From assembly GCF_025787225.1 (NCBI RefSeq), contig NZ_CP090958.1:3954550-4018549 (forward strand): a DNA stretch of 64,000 nucleotides, in the 5' to 3' direction. This document shows, piece after piece, positions 37,568 to 44,641 of this stretch. The notes beneath the pieces are model-generated. The model was not told where the DNA came from and did no database searches. It was given only the letters and a program-made list of their open reading frames with translations. Position 1 is the stretch's first letter. Each line of letters starts with the position of its first letter. Origin of the DNA: Saxibacter everestensis. Lineage in GTDB: Bacteria; Actinomycetota; Actinomycetes; Actinomycetales; Brevibacteriaceae. The position numbers and the translations under genes are program-made.

Positions 37568-38197
37568 ATGAAAATCCCTAGCGCCCGCACCCGAAAAATC
37601 GCTGCCCTCAGCGCGGGTCCCCTCGCCGTGCTCATGGCAGGCGGCCTCGTCTGGCAGGGTTCCCAGGCAGCCTTCACCGCCGACACCCGCAACTCCGGCA
37701 ATGCTTGGAGTTCGGGCCAGGTCATGCTCAGCGATGATGACCTGGGTGCGGCCGGATTCACCGTGCAAAACCTGGTGCCGGGCGCCACCGGCCAGAAGTG
37801 CATCGTCGTCACATCCGGCTCTAATGTGGCCGGAGAGGTGAGGTCCTATGTGCAGAACCTCTCCGAGTCGGCCCAGGGACTGGAAGATCACATTACTTTC
37901 CAGGTCGAACAGGGCACCGGCGGAACATTCAACAACTGCACCGGCTTCACGCCTGCCCCGGGCGCTCTTCCCCCGGAGTCACTGTCAGACCTGGCCGTGG
38001 GCAACCACGACTACGCCACCGGCGGGTCCAAGTGGGCGACGACCGGCAAGCCAGGTGAGAAGAGGACCTACCGGGGAACCTGGAAGTTCGACACCACCGG
38101 CATGACCCAGCAGCAGATCGATGCTCTGCAGGGCGCGCGGACCAGCATCGATCTGGTGTGGGAGCTGCAAAGCAACGAGACGCCAACCCAGCCCTGA
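37568..38197 (+). CDS. TasA/camelysin-like secreted protein with a SipW-type signal peptide
   Basis: A 209-residue exported protein. A basic start and hydrophobic core (LAVLMAGGLVWQG) lead to the SipW-type cleavage region QAAFTADTRNSGNAWSSG. The mature part is beta-rich, with PGATGQKCIVV and two spaced cysteines (about 78 and 121) as in camelysin/TasA fibre proteins. AAAAGG precedes ATG 37568. The next gene encodes a signal peptidase of the SipW class that probably processes it. A role as a surface fibre or biofilm matrix protein is inferred from the family only. Confidence 0.82.
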   Translation: MKIPSARTRKIAALSAGPLAVLMAGGLVWQGSQAAFTADTRNSGNAWSSGQVMLSDDDLGAAGFTVQNLVPGATGQKCIVVTSGSNVAGEVRSYVQNLSESAQGLEDHITFQVEQGTGGTFNNCTGFTPAPGALPPESLSDLAVGNHDYATGGSKWATTGKPGEKRTYRGTWKFDTTGMTQQQIDALQGARTSIDLVWELQSNETPTQP

Positions 38198-38231: not shown

Positions 38232-39674
38232 GTGCCACGTGAGTCCGGCCCCGGTATCGCCCGAACCTTGGGCGGCTGGGGCTGGCTCGCGCTGTCAACG
38301 GCTTCGCTGACGTACCTCACGTTTCTGCTGTCGCTTGCCGCGATTGCCCTACTTCCAGCGCTTTTCGGCTGGCACGGTTCCGTCGTGCAGAGCGGATCGA
38401 TGCGACCCCATATCAACCCGGGCGACGTCGTGCTGTCAACCAACCTTCCGAGCGAGTCAGCTGTTCCGGTCGGTGGCGTGGTGGAATTCAGCAGCCCGGC
38501 ATTTGCCGAGCCCAGCGGGGTGGCGAAGACCCGCTTGCACCGGATCGTCTCCGCGAATGACGACGGCACCTTCGACACGGCGGGCGACGCCAATAAGGAT
38601 ATAGACAGCACGCCGATCAGCCGCGATCAGATCAGCGGTCAGGCCAGGCTGCTGGTGCCCTATGTTGGTCTGCCCAGTCTGTGGATAGGCACCGGCAACT
38701 TTCCGGCGTTAACGACCTGGGCCGTGCTGACTTTGATCGCACTGTCCGTTGTCATTCTCAGCAAGGCGCCGCGGGAGCTTGCGGACGCTGGGCCGGATGG
38801 TGCGGGTACCGGGTCGGCTGGCGGGACGACCGGGGAATCCGGTGCCCAGCGGCCAAGGGCACTTGAACCAGCGAAACGTGTCGTTGCTCGTTCCTCTGGA
38901 ATCATCGCCGCCCTCGCGGTGGTCGTGCTGCTGGTGCCGGGCGGGGCCTCGATGGGCGCCGCGGATGCCGCCTTCACAGACCGCACCAGCACCAGCGGCA
39001 ATAGCTGGCAGGTAGCCGTGGGTAAATCGAAGGCGACCAGCCGGCTCCAGGTAAACGACACTTCCGGGGCGGACGGCTGGTACCAGCGGTCCTCGGTGGA
39101 AGTGCAGATATTCGCCTCGGCATCTTCTGGCTCCGGGATTCGTTCGATCACCTACCGGATCAATGGCGGCACCCCGGTCACCGTCCGGCAGTATTCCGCC
39201 GAATTCAAGGTCACGACACAGGGCGACAACACAATCACTTATTTTGCGACCGACACCGCCGGGCGGGCTGAGGCGGAACACAGCACGCATATCAAGCTCG
39301 ATAACCGGCCTCCGGTTCTGACTGTCTCGTCTCGGACCGGCGACATGACCCACACCGAGTGGAGTGCCAACTGTAAGAGCTATGGCATTTCAGGCGGACT
39401 CTGCGGTGACACGTCCGACGCCGGCGGAAGCGGCATCGGCACGGCGAGTTACGTGTTGCGCAGGTCATCGGATAGTCGCTGTTTCGACGGTTCGAAATGG
39501 ACTGGCGCAGCCTGTGAAAGGCGCGCCTCGGCCAGAATTTCCGGAGCCGGATGGTATGTGTCGGTGCCGGACTCGAAGTTCGAGCGGAAGCGAACCTACT
39601 ACACGATCACTGTATTCGTGACGGACAAGGTCGGGAACGAGGCCATTACAACGAAGAACTTCTCCGTGGGCTAG
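38232..39674 (+). CDS. SipW-type signal peptidase I fused to an exported Ig-like domain
   Basis: A 480-residue fusion. Residues 1-180 are an S26B signal peptidase: one N-terminal helix, nucleophile S56 in VQSGSMRPH, general-base H103 in TRLHRIV, TAGDAN at 116-121, and a second helix at 160-176. After a Gly/Thr linker, residues 218-262 look like a SipW-dependent signal: basic AKRVVAR, a hydrophobic core, then AAFTDRTSTSGNSW, matching the neighbouring TasA-like protein. Two Ig/OmpL47-like domains follow (about 275-345 and 350-480). It may cut its own cargo half loose. GTG 38232 has only a weak ribosome site. Confidence 0.85.
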   Translation: MPRESGPGIARTLGGWGWLALSTASLTYLTFLLSLAAIALLPALFGWHGSVVQSGSMRPHINPGDVVLSTNLPSESAVPVGGVVEFSSPAFAEPSGVAKTRLHRIVSANDDGTFDTAGDANKDIDSTPISRDQISGQARLLVPYVGLPSLWIGTGNFPALTTWAVLTLIALSVVILSKAPRELADAGPDGAGTGSAGGTTGESGAQRPRALEPAKRVVARSSGIIAALAVVVLLVPGGASMGAADAAFTDRTSTSGNSWQVAVGKSKATSRLQVNDTSGADGWYQRSSVEVQIFASASSGSGIRSITYRINGGTPVTVRQYSAEFKVTTQGDNTITYFATDTAGRAEAEHSTHIKLDNRPPVLTVSSRTGDMTHTEWSANCKSYGISGGLCGDTSDAGGSGIGTASYVLRRSSDSRCFDGSKWTGAACERRASARISGAGWYVSVPDSKFERKRTYYTITVFVTDKVGNEAITTKNFSVG

Positions 39675-39681
39675 ACCAGGC

Positions 39682-40281
39682 TCAGAGCACGGTAATAACC
39701 TGTCCGGTTTCGGCGCCCTCGATTGACCGAACGTAAGCCGCCGCGACATCGTCGGCATCGACGGGTGAAATGCCGGGGAAGAATGGCGCATATCCATCGA
39801 GCGATTCAGTCAGAACGCTTGGGCTGATCGCATTGATCCTGATGCCGCGCGGGAGCAGGCCGGCGGCGGAGCGAACGTAGGCCTCGATTGCCGCGTTGGC
39901 AACGGATGCTGTCGTGCCCTGAGTTACCGGCACGTTGGCGAGAATCCCGCTGATCAGGGTGATCGATCCGCCTTCCGGCAGAATCGACACCGCGGTCTGG
40001 GCGATATCGATCTGGCCAAGGGCCTTATTTCCGAGTGCCGCGGCGAAGTCGGTCCGGCTGAGCTCGGGCAGCGGTTTGAATGGCGTCGATCCGGAGGCGA
40101 CGGCGACGGCGTCAATCTGCTCAAGTGACTCGAGCGCATTGACGATCGACGCGTGATCTTCGATTGACAGCGCGGGATTGGTCGACCGGGATAGTGCTGA
40201 AACCGTGTGGCCGCGATCCTTCAGCTGACGGTTCACTGCGGTACCGATTGTTCCGGTGGCACCGATGAGTGCGATGTGCAT
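39682..40281 (-). CDS. Short-chain dehydrogenase (SDR family)
   Basis: A 199-residue, compact SDR protein. The NADP-binding loop is GATGTIGTAV at residues 7-16. The catalytic lysine/tyrosine pattern is atypical: the usual YxxxK is replaced around SVANAAIEAYVRSAAGL, where Ala stands for Tyr, although Ser (about 110) and the Asn before it are seen. It resembles the atypical SDR group often annotated as oxidoreductases of unknown substrate. AGGAGG lies ten bases before ATG 40281. Confidence 0.82.
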   Translation of the reverse strand: MHIALIGATGTIGTAVNRQLKDRGHTVSALSRSTNPALSIEDHASIVNALESLEQIDAVAVASGSTPFKPLPELSRTDFAAALGNKALGQIDIAQTAVSILPEGGSITLISGILANVPVTQGTTASVANAAIEAYVRSAAGLLPRGIRINAISPSVLTESLDGYAPFFPGISPVDADDVAAAYVRSIEGAETGQVITVL

Positions 40282-40366
40282 GCTGGCCTCCTGCCGTGTG
40301 GTGGTCGGTCCCCTGGGCCAGGGACGACGCAGAGGGTGAACCTGCTATCCAACCGGGATATTCCGC

Positions 40367-40546
40367 GCGCTCGGTAGCAAGTGTTCGCCGCGCTCGGTAG
40401 CAAGTGTTCGCCGCGCTCGGTAGCAAGTGTTCGCCGCGCTCGGTAGCTCGGTAGCGGAGCGGTCGGCGCCGCTCGGTAGCTCGGTAGCGGAGCGATCGCC
40501 GCCGGTGGTCGGCGGCTGCCTAGCCGATCCTGCTGCCTAGCCGATC
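40367..40546 (-). repeat. Nested tandem repeats (17, 33 and 23 bp) after the methyltransferase gene
   Basis: Moving away from the gene: CTGCCTAGCCGATC at 40533-40546 and 40516-40529 (17-bp period; the gene-side copy holds the TAG stop), then two 33-bp units (40438-40470, 40471-40503), then three 23-bp units (40367-40435). All share a GCTCGGTAGC-like core. They occupy most of the gap to the SDR gene's start. Confidence 0.88.
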
Positions 40547-42062: not shown

Positions 42063-43082
42063 ATGGCATCGCAGGCGAAAGACATCGAGGTTCCGGGGGC
42101 GCACGGCGCTCGAAAGATACGGATTTCCAGCCCGGATCGTCTGATCTGGCCAGCTGACGGCGTCACCAAGTGGGACCTCGCCGAGTACGTGGCCGCTGTG
42201 GATGAGGAGTTGCTGCGCGCGCTAGGCGATCGGCCTGTCACCCTGCAGCGCTTCCCGACAGGTATCGATGGGGAGGAGTTCTTCTCCAAGAACCCACCAC
42301 GCGGCGTGCCGGAGTGGGCGCGCTCGACGATGTGCACTTACCCGTCAGCCCGGTCACACCCGCAACTGGTAATAGATGAGATCGCCACAGCTGTCTGGGC
42401 GGTGCAGATGAATACCGTGACGTTTCACCCGTGGCCGGTCCGGGTCGCAGACAACGACAATCCCGACGAACTGCGGATCGATTTGGACCCGCAGCCCGGG
42501 CGCGGGTTTCGGGATGCCGTCGAAGCTGCATTCGCGCTCGGTGAGCTGCTGCGCGAGCTGGAACTGGTCCCCTGGGTGAAGACCAGCGGCAACCGAGGAC
42601 TCCATGTCTATGCCCGGATCCGGCCCCAGTGGGAATTCCAGGAAGTCCGGCACGCCGTGATCGGAATCGCCCGAGAGCTCGAGCGCCGCTTACCGAAGTT
42701 GGTCACCTCGGCATGGTGGAAGGAGGAGCGCGGCGAGAAGGTCTTCGTTGATTTCAACCAGGCAAACCGGGACCGGACCATCGCTTCGGCCTACAGCCCG
42801 CGACCCCTGCCCGGGGCCCCGGTCTCAATGCCGGTGCGATGGGAAAGTCTGGCCGACATCCAGCCGAGCGCGTTCACAGTGCGGACCGTGCCGGAAATAC
42901 TCGCCGCGGAGGGTGACGCCTGGGCGGGGATGGATGAAGCAGTCGGCGGTATCGATGCGGCACTTGGCCTCTGGGAGACGGACCTGGCGAACGGGCTCGG
43001 CGAGATGCCCTTTCCGCCGGAGTACCCGAAGATGCCGGGCGAGCCTCCCCGGGTGCAGCCCAGCAAGCGCCGGGCGCCCTAG
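42063..43082 (+). CDS. Stand-alone LigD-type polymerase/primase domain protein
   Basis: A 339-residue NHEJ archaeo-eukaryotic primase. It shows the family opening VRISSPDR-IWPADGVTKWDLAEY, the metal motif RIDLDPQPG (about 135-143), TSGNRGLHVYARI with the conserved His (about 175-187), and FVDFNQANRDRTIASAYSPRP. No ligase or nuclease domain is attached, as in many actinobacterial paralogues of LigD. It adds nucleotides during double-strand-break repair; Ku and ligase genes are not in the window. It ends in a shared CTAG with the convergent adhesin gene. Confidence 0.88.
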   Translation: MASQAKDIEVPGAHGARKIRISSPDRLIWPADGVTKWDLAEYVAAVDEELLRALGDRPVTLQRFPTGIDGEEFFSKNPPRGVPEWARSTMCTYPSARSHPQLVIDEIATAVWAVQMNTVTFHPWPVRVADNDNPDELRIDLDPQPGRGFRDAVEAAFALGELLRELELVPWVKTSGNRGLHVYARIRPQWEFQEVRHAVIGIARELERRLPKLVTSAWWKEERGEKVFVDFNQANRDRTIASAYSPRPLPGAPVSMPVRWESLADIQPSAFTVRTVPEILAAEGDAWAGMDEAVGGIDAALGLWETDLANGLGEMPFPPEYPKMPGEPPRVQPSKRRAP

Positions 43083-44641
43083 TGTCGCCTGCGTCGTTCG
43101 CGGACCGCTACGACATAGGCCACGGCGCCGAGCGCGAGCAGGGCAGCTGCCAGGCCAAGGAGCTTGCTGACGTCGGCACCAGTGAATGGCAGCTCATCAT
43201 GCGGATCCCGGCCGGGGTCGCTTTCGCTCGGGTCGTCCCCAGGATTTGAAGGGTTGTCACTCGGCGAGACGGAAGGATCCTTGGTTTCGGTGGGGTCATC
43301 CGTCTGGGTTGGCGGCGTTGTGGGGTCATCCGTCTCTGTTGGCGTCGCCGTGGTCTCGCGCACGAAAGCGAAGTCCTGTTCAGTTACAGTCTCGCCATCC
43401 TCGGTTATCTCGAACTCCCGCGGATTGGGACCGTCGACCTTCTTGCCGTCCGGAGGTGTGACCGATAGTTCGTAGTCGCCGGGTTCCAGTTCGTCCACAC
43501 CGAAGTGCCCCTGCTCATCGGTCGTCAGAACGCGCGACTCGTCATCCGGGCCGGTGAGTGTCAACGGAAAGTCCTTGAGCGGTTCACCTTCATCGGTGAC
43601 GTCACCCTCAACCGATCCGGTCTCGGCGGGGCGGAAGGTGAAGTCCGCCAGCCCGTCAGCGTTTGTCAGGTTGACGTCCTGGCGGGTCGGGGAAACCGGG
43701 ACGTAGCCTTCGGGGCCTTCGACCTTCACGGCATACCCGTCGGCGGCGGTATAGCCCTCGAAGGCGTACTTCCCGTTCTGGTCCGTTGTTGTCTCTGCGA
43801 GAACGTCGCCGTTCGGGCCGATCAGTTTGAGCGTAAGACCTTCGAAGCGGCTGCCGCCGTCTTCGGTTGAAACCGTACCGGTGATATCCCGGGCAACGGT
43901 GGCAAACCAGGTCTGATAAATCGGGAAACCCTGTTCGCGGGTGAAGGTAAAGGTAAGTGAGCTCAGCGAGACGGTCGGTTCAAACCAGCCGGAAGCGCCA
44001 TCCGTGTCAGGTGCATTCCCCGAACCGACCCCACTGCCCTTAAGCGTGCCGGTACTCGCGTCCCAGATCGGCTTGTCCGGGTTGGCGGAACACGGGCTCG
44101 GGCTGCCGACGCAGTAGTTGAACGCGCCATTGAAACCGAGGGTCTCGCCGATTTGGTCTGCGGGAATCTTCCGGCCAGCGGCATCCGTTGCCGAAACGGC
44201 GACAGAGTCGGAGTCGATATCTCCGAGCACAAAGGCCCAACCTGCGGCCGGTGTCGGCGACTCGAATGTGTACGTAGTCACCGACGGTGAGGTCTTGTTG
44301 TCCGCCTTTGGGCGGAGATTGAGGTACTTGTTGTTCTTGCTGGATCCGTACTTCCGGCCGACATCGGTGCTGGTGTTCAGGAACGTGCTTCCGCCTGACT
44401 GCAAGCCGACATTTCCGGCTCGGGAATCCGAGGTGAATGTCGCAGCCGGAAACCCCTTTGCGTTCAGCTGGACAGATCCCTGATAGCTATTCGCCTCGCC
44501 TTCGAAGCTATTCCACGTGGCCCATGAAGTGGCCTCCACGGCATGCGCGGGAGGCATGCCGATCAGTACTGAACTGAGCGCAAGCAATATCGAGGTGACA
44601 AAAGCAAGCGCTAGGTTAGTTTTCTTAAACAGCCACTGCAT
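43079..44641 (-). CDS. LPXTG-anchored surface protein with SpaA/Cna-B-like repeats
   Basis: A 520-residue cell-wall protein. A signal peptide (LALAFVTSILLALSSVLIG, cleavage after AHA at about 34) leads to a beta-rich N-terminal domain of about 220 residues. Two to three SpaA/carboxypeptidase-regulatory-like domains follow (about 250-440), then a Thr/Asp/Pro stalk with TDDPT repeats. The sorting signal DELPFTG, a helix and RRRRH close the protein. Sortase would attach it to peptidoglycan. The sortase gene is not in this window. It is probably an adhesin or stalk protein. Confidence 0.9.
   Translation of the reverse strand: MQWLFKKTNLALAFVTSILLALSSVLIGMPPAHAVEATSWATWNSFEGEANSYQGSVQLNAKGFPAATFTSDSRAGNVGLQSGGSTFLNTSTDVGRKYGSSKNNKYLNLRPKADNKTSPSVTTYTFESPTPAAGWAFVLGDIDSDSVAVSATDAAGRKIPADQIGETLGFNGAFNYCVGSPSPCSANPDKPIWDASTGTLKGSGVGSGNAPDTDGASGWFEPTVSLSSLTFTFTREQGFPIYQTWFATVARDITGTVSTEDGGSRFEGLTLKLIGPNGDVLAETTTDQNGKYAFEGYTAADGYAVKVEGPEGYVPVSPTRQDVNLTNADGLADFTFRPAETGSVEGDVTDEGEPLKDFPLTLTGPDDESRVLTTDEQGHFGVDELEPGDYELSVTPPDGKKVDGPNPREFEITEDGETVTEQDFAFVRETTATPTETDDPTTPPTQTDDPTETKDPSVSPSDNPSNPGDDPSESDPGRDPHDELPFTGADVSKLLGLAAALLALGAVAYVVAVRERRRRH

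Follow-up and report, generated by a model that had tools for sequence, protein, structure and literature searches.

The open reading frame at 38232-39674 of the window (the whole 64,000-nucleotide stretch of Saxibacter everestensis DNA that was analysed) encodes, from a GTG start on the plus strand, a protein of 480 amino acids in which an S26B signal peptidase is followed, within the same chain, by a SipW-type signal and surface domains. The frame starts 34 bases past the end of a gene coding for a TasA-like protein on the same strand. The reading favored here, with a probability of roughly 0.6, is that the two genes make up a matrix-fibre operon, in which the peptidase frees its own tail and matures the TasA-like protein, while the tail acts in the manner of TapA. 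The coordinates and reading frame given in the initial annotation were confirmed, and its description of the product as a peptidase joined to a SipW-type cargo of its own finds strong support in the recurrence of the fusion, in the presence of the same cut segment in unrelated tails, in the existence of split forms, and in the lack of a second clear S26B enzyme in the genome.

The peptidase half opens with a transmembrane segment (TM1, about residues 21-45, 38292..38366, from hydropathy; helix 8-45 in the model), leading into the catalytic domain. Here Ser56 (38397..38399) belongs to a conserved S-x-M motif and His103 (38538..38540) to an invariant HR, and both columns are invariant or nearly so in an alignment of 16 relatives. 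A dyad made of Ser within S-x-M and His, not Lys, is the one of S26B enzymes; column conservation and profile matches thus bear out the earlier assignment of this half to S26B, with S56 and H103 as catalytic residues. TIGR02228 matches with E 1.3e-12 and 47.8 bits, 4 bits short of its cut-off of 51.85, and the SipW model NF046067 with E 3e-10 and 39.9 bits, not reaching its curated cut-off of 190; judged by these scores, the half is a homologue of SipW and not an equivalog of the Bacillus enzyme (NF046067), and its activity on SipW-type signals is putative. When the genome was searched with a profile of the fused peptidases, the fused enzyme was detected; other loci, at 957-958 kb, scored far more weakly (best E 2e-4) and would fit ordinary S26A-type enzymes. 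For this reason, the fused enzyme is regarded as the only clear S26B peptidase for both substrates.

A second transmembrane segment (TM2, about residues 157-178, 38700..38765, from hydropathy and a model helix at 157-178) is predicted to bring the chain back to the cytoplasm, where the flexible linker that follows is expected to be located. The linker (residues 179-217, 38766..38882, from hydropathy; model pLDDT about 55) is rich in Gly, Ser and Pro and, as delimited by hydropathy, contains 7 Lys/Arg and 5 Asp/Glu. The third hydrophobic segment (residues 218-242, 38883..38957) has an h-region of about 12 residues and is predicted to be an internal signal peptide, on the basis of hydropathy and of homology to the N-terminal signals of the split forms; hydrophobic length alone did not separate it from TM2. 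Residues 213-248 include all the elements of a SipW-type signal, namely a basic n-region, an h-region, A-x-A and an aromatic residue at P2'. Alignment with SipW-type cargos places the predicted cut site between A246 and A247 (38967..38972), with F248 at P2'. Location of the second half in the cytoplasm was rejected as improbable, since the pattern of linker and transmembrane segments, the even number of Cys and the secreted split forms speak against it.

The upstream gene (37568..38197, plus strand) encodes a TasA-like, camelysin-type candidate fibre subunit, whose SipW-type signal ends in SQA, followed by AFTADTRNSGNAW. Its AlphaFold model (pLDDT 82) finds as best PDB fold matches, by Foldseek, the TasA fibre 8aur (E 7.2e-6, TM-score 0.51) and TasA 5of1 (E 4e-4), so that a TasA jelly-roll fold is predicted from the 8aur match; profile matches of the protein to 8aur and 5of1 are weak, and no TasA or camelysin model of Pfam/NCBIfam was found at E up to 1. 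A search of the whole genome with a full TasA-like profile gave two matches only, the upstream gene itself and, with a weak score, the signal inside the fused protein. The segment suited to donor-strand exchange is present, and the product is a putative fibre former by this route.

The resemblance between the two signals, pointed out in the initial annotation, was recovered in two ways. In the fused protein, A-D-A is directly followed by AFTDRTSTSGNSW (A247 to W259, 38970..39008), a donor-strand-like segment by cargo alignment; past its own predicted cut, the upstream cargo reads A-F-T-A-D-T-R-N-S-G-N-A-W. Common to both are F at +2, N at +11 and W at +13, corresponding to F248, N257 and W259 of the tail. 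In addition, a profile trained on six stand-alone TasA-like signals only was used to search 3,942 six-frame ORFs, and the sequences above noise were SipW-type secreted proteins and fused peptidases, including the window protein (E 0.012); since a cargo-only profile ranks fused peptidases in this way, the likeness of the internal signal is more than chance. The standard model for SipW signals, TIGR04088, has no match in the window tail or in the upstream cargo and, across fused tails, detects only that of L055, weakly and below cut-off; it appears too narrow for these signals.

Downstream of the cut segment, an OmpL47/Ig-like domain is found at residues 297-355 (39120..39296; NF047446, 47.7 bits, above the cut-off of 40). 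The rest of the tail (residues 356-480, 39297..39671) is a beta-rich region with four Cys and weak Big_13 and Ca_tandemer matches, its model being of low confidence. The description of the second half as ending in Ig-like domains thus holds for one clear domain, the last 120 residues or so being only weakly Ig-like. In the AlphaFold model of the full-length protein, the peptidase is good and the tail poor, of low confidence. Two further features were recorded nearby in the window. The product of the minus-strand frame at 43079-44641 is a surface protein whose C-terminus has an LPFTGAD sorting motif, a hydrophobic segment and a basic tail, and in which Cna-B-like repeats were recognised by eye; short GC-rich tandem repeats at 40366-40504, made up of a 23-base unit in 3.6 identical copies and then of a 33-base unit, lie upstream of the minus-strand gene 39682-40281.

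Searches for the same fusion covered 297 genomes from the order, 396 from the phylum and 149 from a single related family, and were followed by inspection of the loci. About 30 further cases were confirmed across Actinomycetota, as the initial annotation had proposed to check; only top matches were read, so that all counts are lower bounds. The fusion is present in at least 10 genomes of the order sample and in at least 11 of the related family, where at least 3 carry the split form. Examples are WP_239437835.1, on plasmid NZ_CP013746.1 of Arthrobacter alpinus A3, and WP_343320602.1 of Arthrobacter sp. TMP15, both labelled 'Ig-like domain-containing protein' and preceded by a gene labelled 'hypothetical protein', which in A. 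alpinus reads as TasA-like. Among 26 tabulated candidates, most of those with an A-F-T signal are directly preceded, on the same strand, by a gene for a SipW-type, mostly TasA-like product, with gaps ranging from -22 to 244 bp and one more of about 300; in one, the SipW-type gene is just downstream instead. Nine more fused loci also have a SipW-type or TasA-like gene upstream.

Several candidates were excluded from these counts. In three (L059, L060, L113) the tail is of another kind and has no A-F-T segment, and L061 is without the motif; a fused-looking match in Planomonospora (L019) turned out to be two adjacent genes, and six others (L058, L065, L106, L118, L119, L120) are unfused. The first three represent another S26-type fusion, with a large extracellular region, a further transmembrane segment and a third segment ending in S-W-T.

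The tails of the fused proteins are made up of mutually unrelated modules: Ig, LamG, ice-binding, CBM5/12, RCC1, WD40, Gly-rich and TasA-like, with FN3-like fused forms as well. Pfam matches include Big_7 Ig repeats (1.4e-23), Laminin_G_3 (up to 2.8e-38), Ice_binding (2e-34), RCC1 (2e-64), WD40 (3e-42), a Gly-rich domain (4e-21) and, weakly, CBM_5_12 (6e-4). All of the tails keep the SipW-type signal, and most the TasA-like segment past the cut. Ice-binding-like domains (PF11999) form the tails at L150, L152, L153 and L154, and an ice-binding protein gene is found further downstream at the plasmid locus of Arthrobacter sp. TMP15 (L128). At L054 (genome G096), the S26B domain is fused straight to a whole TasA-like subunit, combining the enzyme and a probable fibre subunit in one chain. 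In five members (L151, L152, L153, L154, L057) the third hydrophobic segment is preceded by a twin-arginine-like n-region (STRRAFFALTG in L153); in these, the Tat route may carry the tail out once the first two segments have been inserted by Sec, as in membrane proteins reported to use both Sec and Tat. The window protein has no RR.

In three genomes (G817, G808, G723) the Arthrobacter-type Ig tail is a separate ORF, located directly after a separate S26B gene, whose reading frame looks interrupted in G723. These tails are 47-55% identical over about 600 residues to the Arthrobacter type; each opens with Met and basic residues, which are followed by a hydrophobic stretch and by S-T-A-A-[FY]-T. 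The third segment of the fused proteins is therefore homologous to a true N-terminal signal peptide, which is the strongest evidence that the tail would be exported and cut. Similarly, separate RCC1 and FN3-like proteins with a SipW-type signal, both having fused counterparts, adjoin unfused S26B genes at L106 and L118. A tree of the catalytic domain (82 rows, 147 columns) is poorly resolved; it groups the window protein with L051 (71% identical) and L052, both from a different family, with 95% support, and requires 12 changes of the fused label, at least four of them on well-supported branches. Judged from this tree, the fusion has been gained or lost several times. No match reaching the fused signal was found in the other genomes searched of the window's own family, so that the copy in the window may have reached this genome by horizontal transfer.

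Conservation past the cut site was evaluated on tails aligned on that site, the alignment being anchored on the +2 aromatic. In a first set of 22 fused tails, 21 have an aromatic residue at +2 and 15 have one at +13; with eight tails added, the figures are 28/30 and 21/30, counts which are inflated by the partial kinship of the fused members. Stand-alone cargos have aromatics at +2 in 31/31 and at +13 in 24/31. In 20,000 random rotations of the 22 tails, the count in the best column was 4.4 on average and 10 at most, against the 15 observed at +13. The motifs of a cargo and of the tail from the same locus resemble each other more than those of shuffled pairs do (p 0.008), a likeness to which shared ancestry could contribute. 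The stretch read by signal peptidase reportedly runs from P3 to P4', and an aromatic P2', such as the Phe of TasA, makes a poor substrate for the ordinary LepB type (PMC10269814). Residues such as F248 thus argue for the S26B enzyme as the cutter, while conservation past +4, being outside the range read by signal peptidase, suggests a second use of the segment. The +13 aromatic is absent from about one-third of the tails and from the three split forms, which makes the donor-strand step weaker than the cut-site step.

This second use may be found in fibre assembly. The donor strand of TasA, residues 28-38, lies right after the cut and inserts into the next subunit, by using F29, I32 and F39 (PMC9674648); TapA donates its N-terminus to TasA, and its residues 44-57 by themselves support biofilm formation (PMC10151520). 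Taken together with the conservation past the cut, these data make a TapA-like partner the simplest proposal for the tail: if an aromatic-x10-aromatic segment can serve as donor strand, the tail would act like TapA. In the proposed mechanism, the first gene would provide the TasA-like fibre subunit and the second a precursor, in which a SipW-like peptidase comes first and a SipW-type secreted protein makes up the C-terminal part. Membrane insertion through TM1 and TM2 would place the active site outside, and the third hydrophobic segment would export the tail as an internal signal peptide. Since one chain holds both a signal-cutting enzyme and a surface protein with a signal of that type, the peptidase probably frees its own tail, by cutting between A246 and A247 in cis or in another copy; the same peptidase would also mature the TasA-like subunit. 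The freed Ig-type tail, beginning with an aromatic-x10-aromatic segment as the fibre subunit does, would then join the fibre through its new N-terminus, as a nucleator, tip or anchor with a swappable binding domain. Extension of this scheme to the phylum is held tentatively, at somewhat less than even odds: each self-processing peptidase would be both the fibre enzyme and the precursor of one tip, nucleator or anchor, releasing a donor-strand adhesin with an exchangeable head (Ig, LamG, CBM, ice-binding or propeller), with processing and initiation coupled at a fixed ratio.

The tail might be cut by the peptidase and be unrelated to the fibre, the fusion merely pairing a surface adhesin with its processing enzyme. 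The generic nature of the adhesion or binding modules in the tails, together with the third or so of them lacking the +13 aromatic, would fit this explanation, which is nonetheless rather unlikely, as a TasA-like gene is directly upstream at most loci, and most tails keep the TasA-like segment beyond the known reading range of signal peptidase. Less probable still is a third segment that stays uncut, so that the Ig- or LamG-type domain, remaining attached, anchors the peptidase to the wall or the growing fibre or sets its position there. A plain anchor needs no A-x-A|A-F-T signature, yet unrelated tails keep it, and in the split forms the equivalent segment serves stand-alone secreted proteins as their N-terminal signal; a protein with three membrane segments does look stable, and the hydrophobic stretch is long in some members (27 residues in L052, 23 in L064), but the h-region in the window measures only about 12.

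The presence of signal and active site in one chain, joined by a flexible linker, would also suit a pseudosubstrate, inhibiting the active site until fibre cargo arrives, and one fused form (G047) carries almost only the signal, with just 17 residues past the predicted cut. This is very improbable, as the predicted site comes close to the consensus of a substrate rather than being blocked, and most tails hold large folded domains, needless for inhibition. Finally, a recent chance fusion or assembly artefact without function could be suspected from the patchy distribution, the nearest relatives in another family and the absence from the other genomes searched of the window's own family; it was rejected as scarcely credible, since the same fusion recurs in many genomes, including complete Arthrobacter plasmid records, with open frames of hundreds of codons and a conserved operon.

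The initial annotation had noted the combination as not seen described. No description of a peptidase-cargo fusion was found in open-access full-text literature, which was the scope of the search; the architecture itself is phylum-wide, and its members are stored in databases under generic names, such as the Arthrobacter label given above. Fused proteins can carry the name of the tail alone, an annotation corrected here. Signal peptidases are normally regarded as enzymes distinct from the proteins they process; in this architecture, which recurs with interchangeable surface heads, enzyme and substrate share a chain. Should the tail be released, actinobacteria would have a compact counterpart of the tapA-sipW-tasA system, and the fusion would identify TasA-like fibre operons across Actinomycetota, where none was found described in open-access literature; it would also hint at fibre caps or anchors, including ice-binding and sugar-binding heads.

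Compared with known systems, the fused enzyme shares with SipW of Bacillus subtilis a Ser-His peptidase of the S26B/ER type, encoded together with a TasA-type cargo, and the cutting of signals with an aromatic P2', which is predicted here; SipW is a separate enzyme, whereas the fused one also bears a SipW-type signal with a surface protein behind it. A profile of the fused peptidase's relatives matches human SEC11C (7p2q, E 7.5e-15), assigning them to the catalytic family of the SEC11 subunits of the eukaryotic signal peptidase complex, which, unlike the fused protein, have no fused cargo and work in a multi-subunit complex. The upstream gene shares with TasA and camelysin (CalY) the signal type, the operon position, the fold (8aur) and a donor-strand-like N-terminus, but it is actinobacterial, of low sequence identity, and a putative fibre former. 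The aromatic spacing in TasA, F29 to F39 (+12), is one residue shorter than the +2/+13 spacing of the window tail. TapA of B. subtilis, whose N-terminus is a donor strand and whose gene overlaps sipW, and CapP of B. cereus are minor TasA partners processed by SipW, to which the tail is likened by role; in the present case the enzyme itself carries the putative partner, and the tails, attached C-terminally to the peptidase, consist of unrelated modules such as Ig, LamG and ice-binding, their nucleation role being putative.
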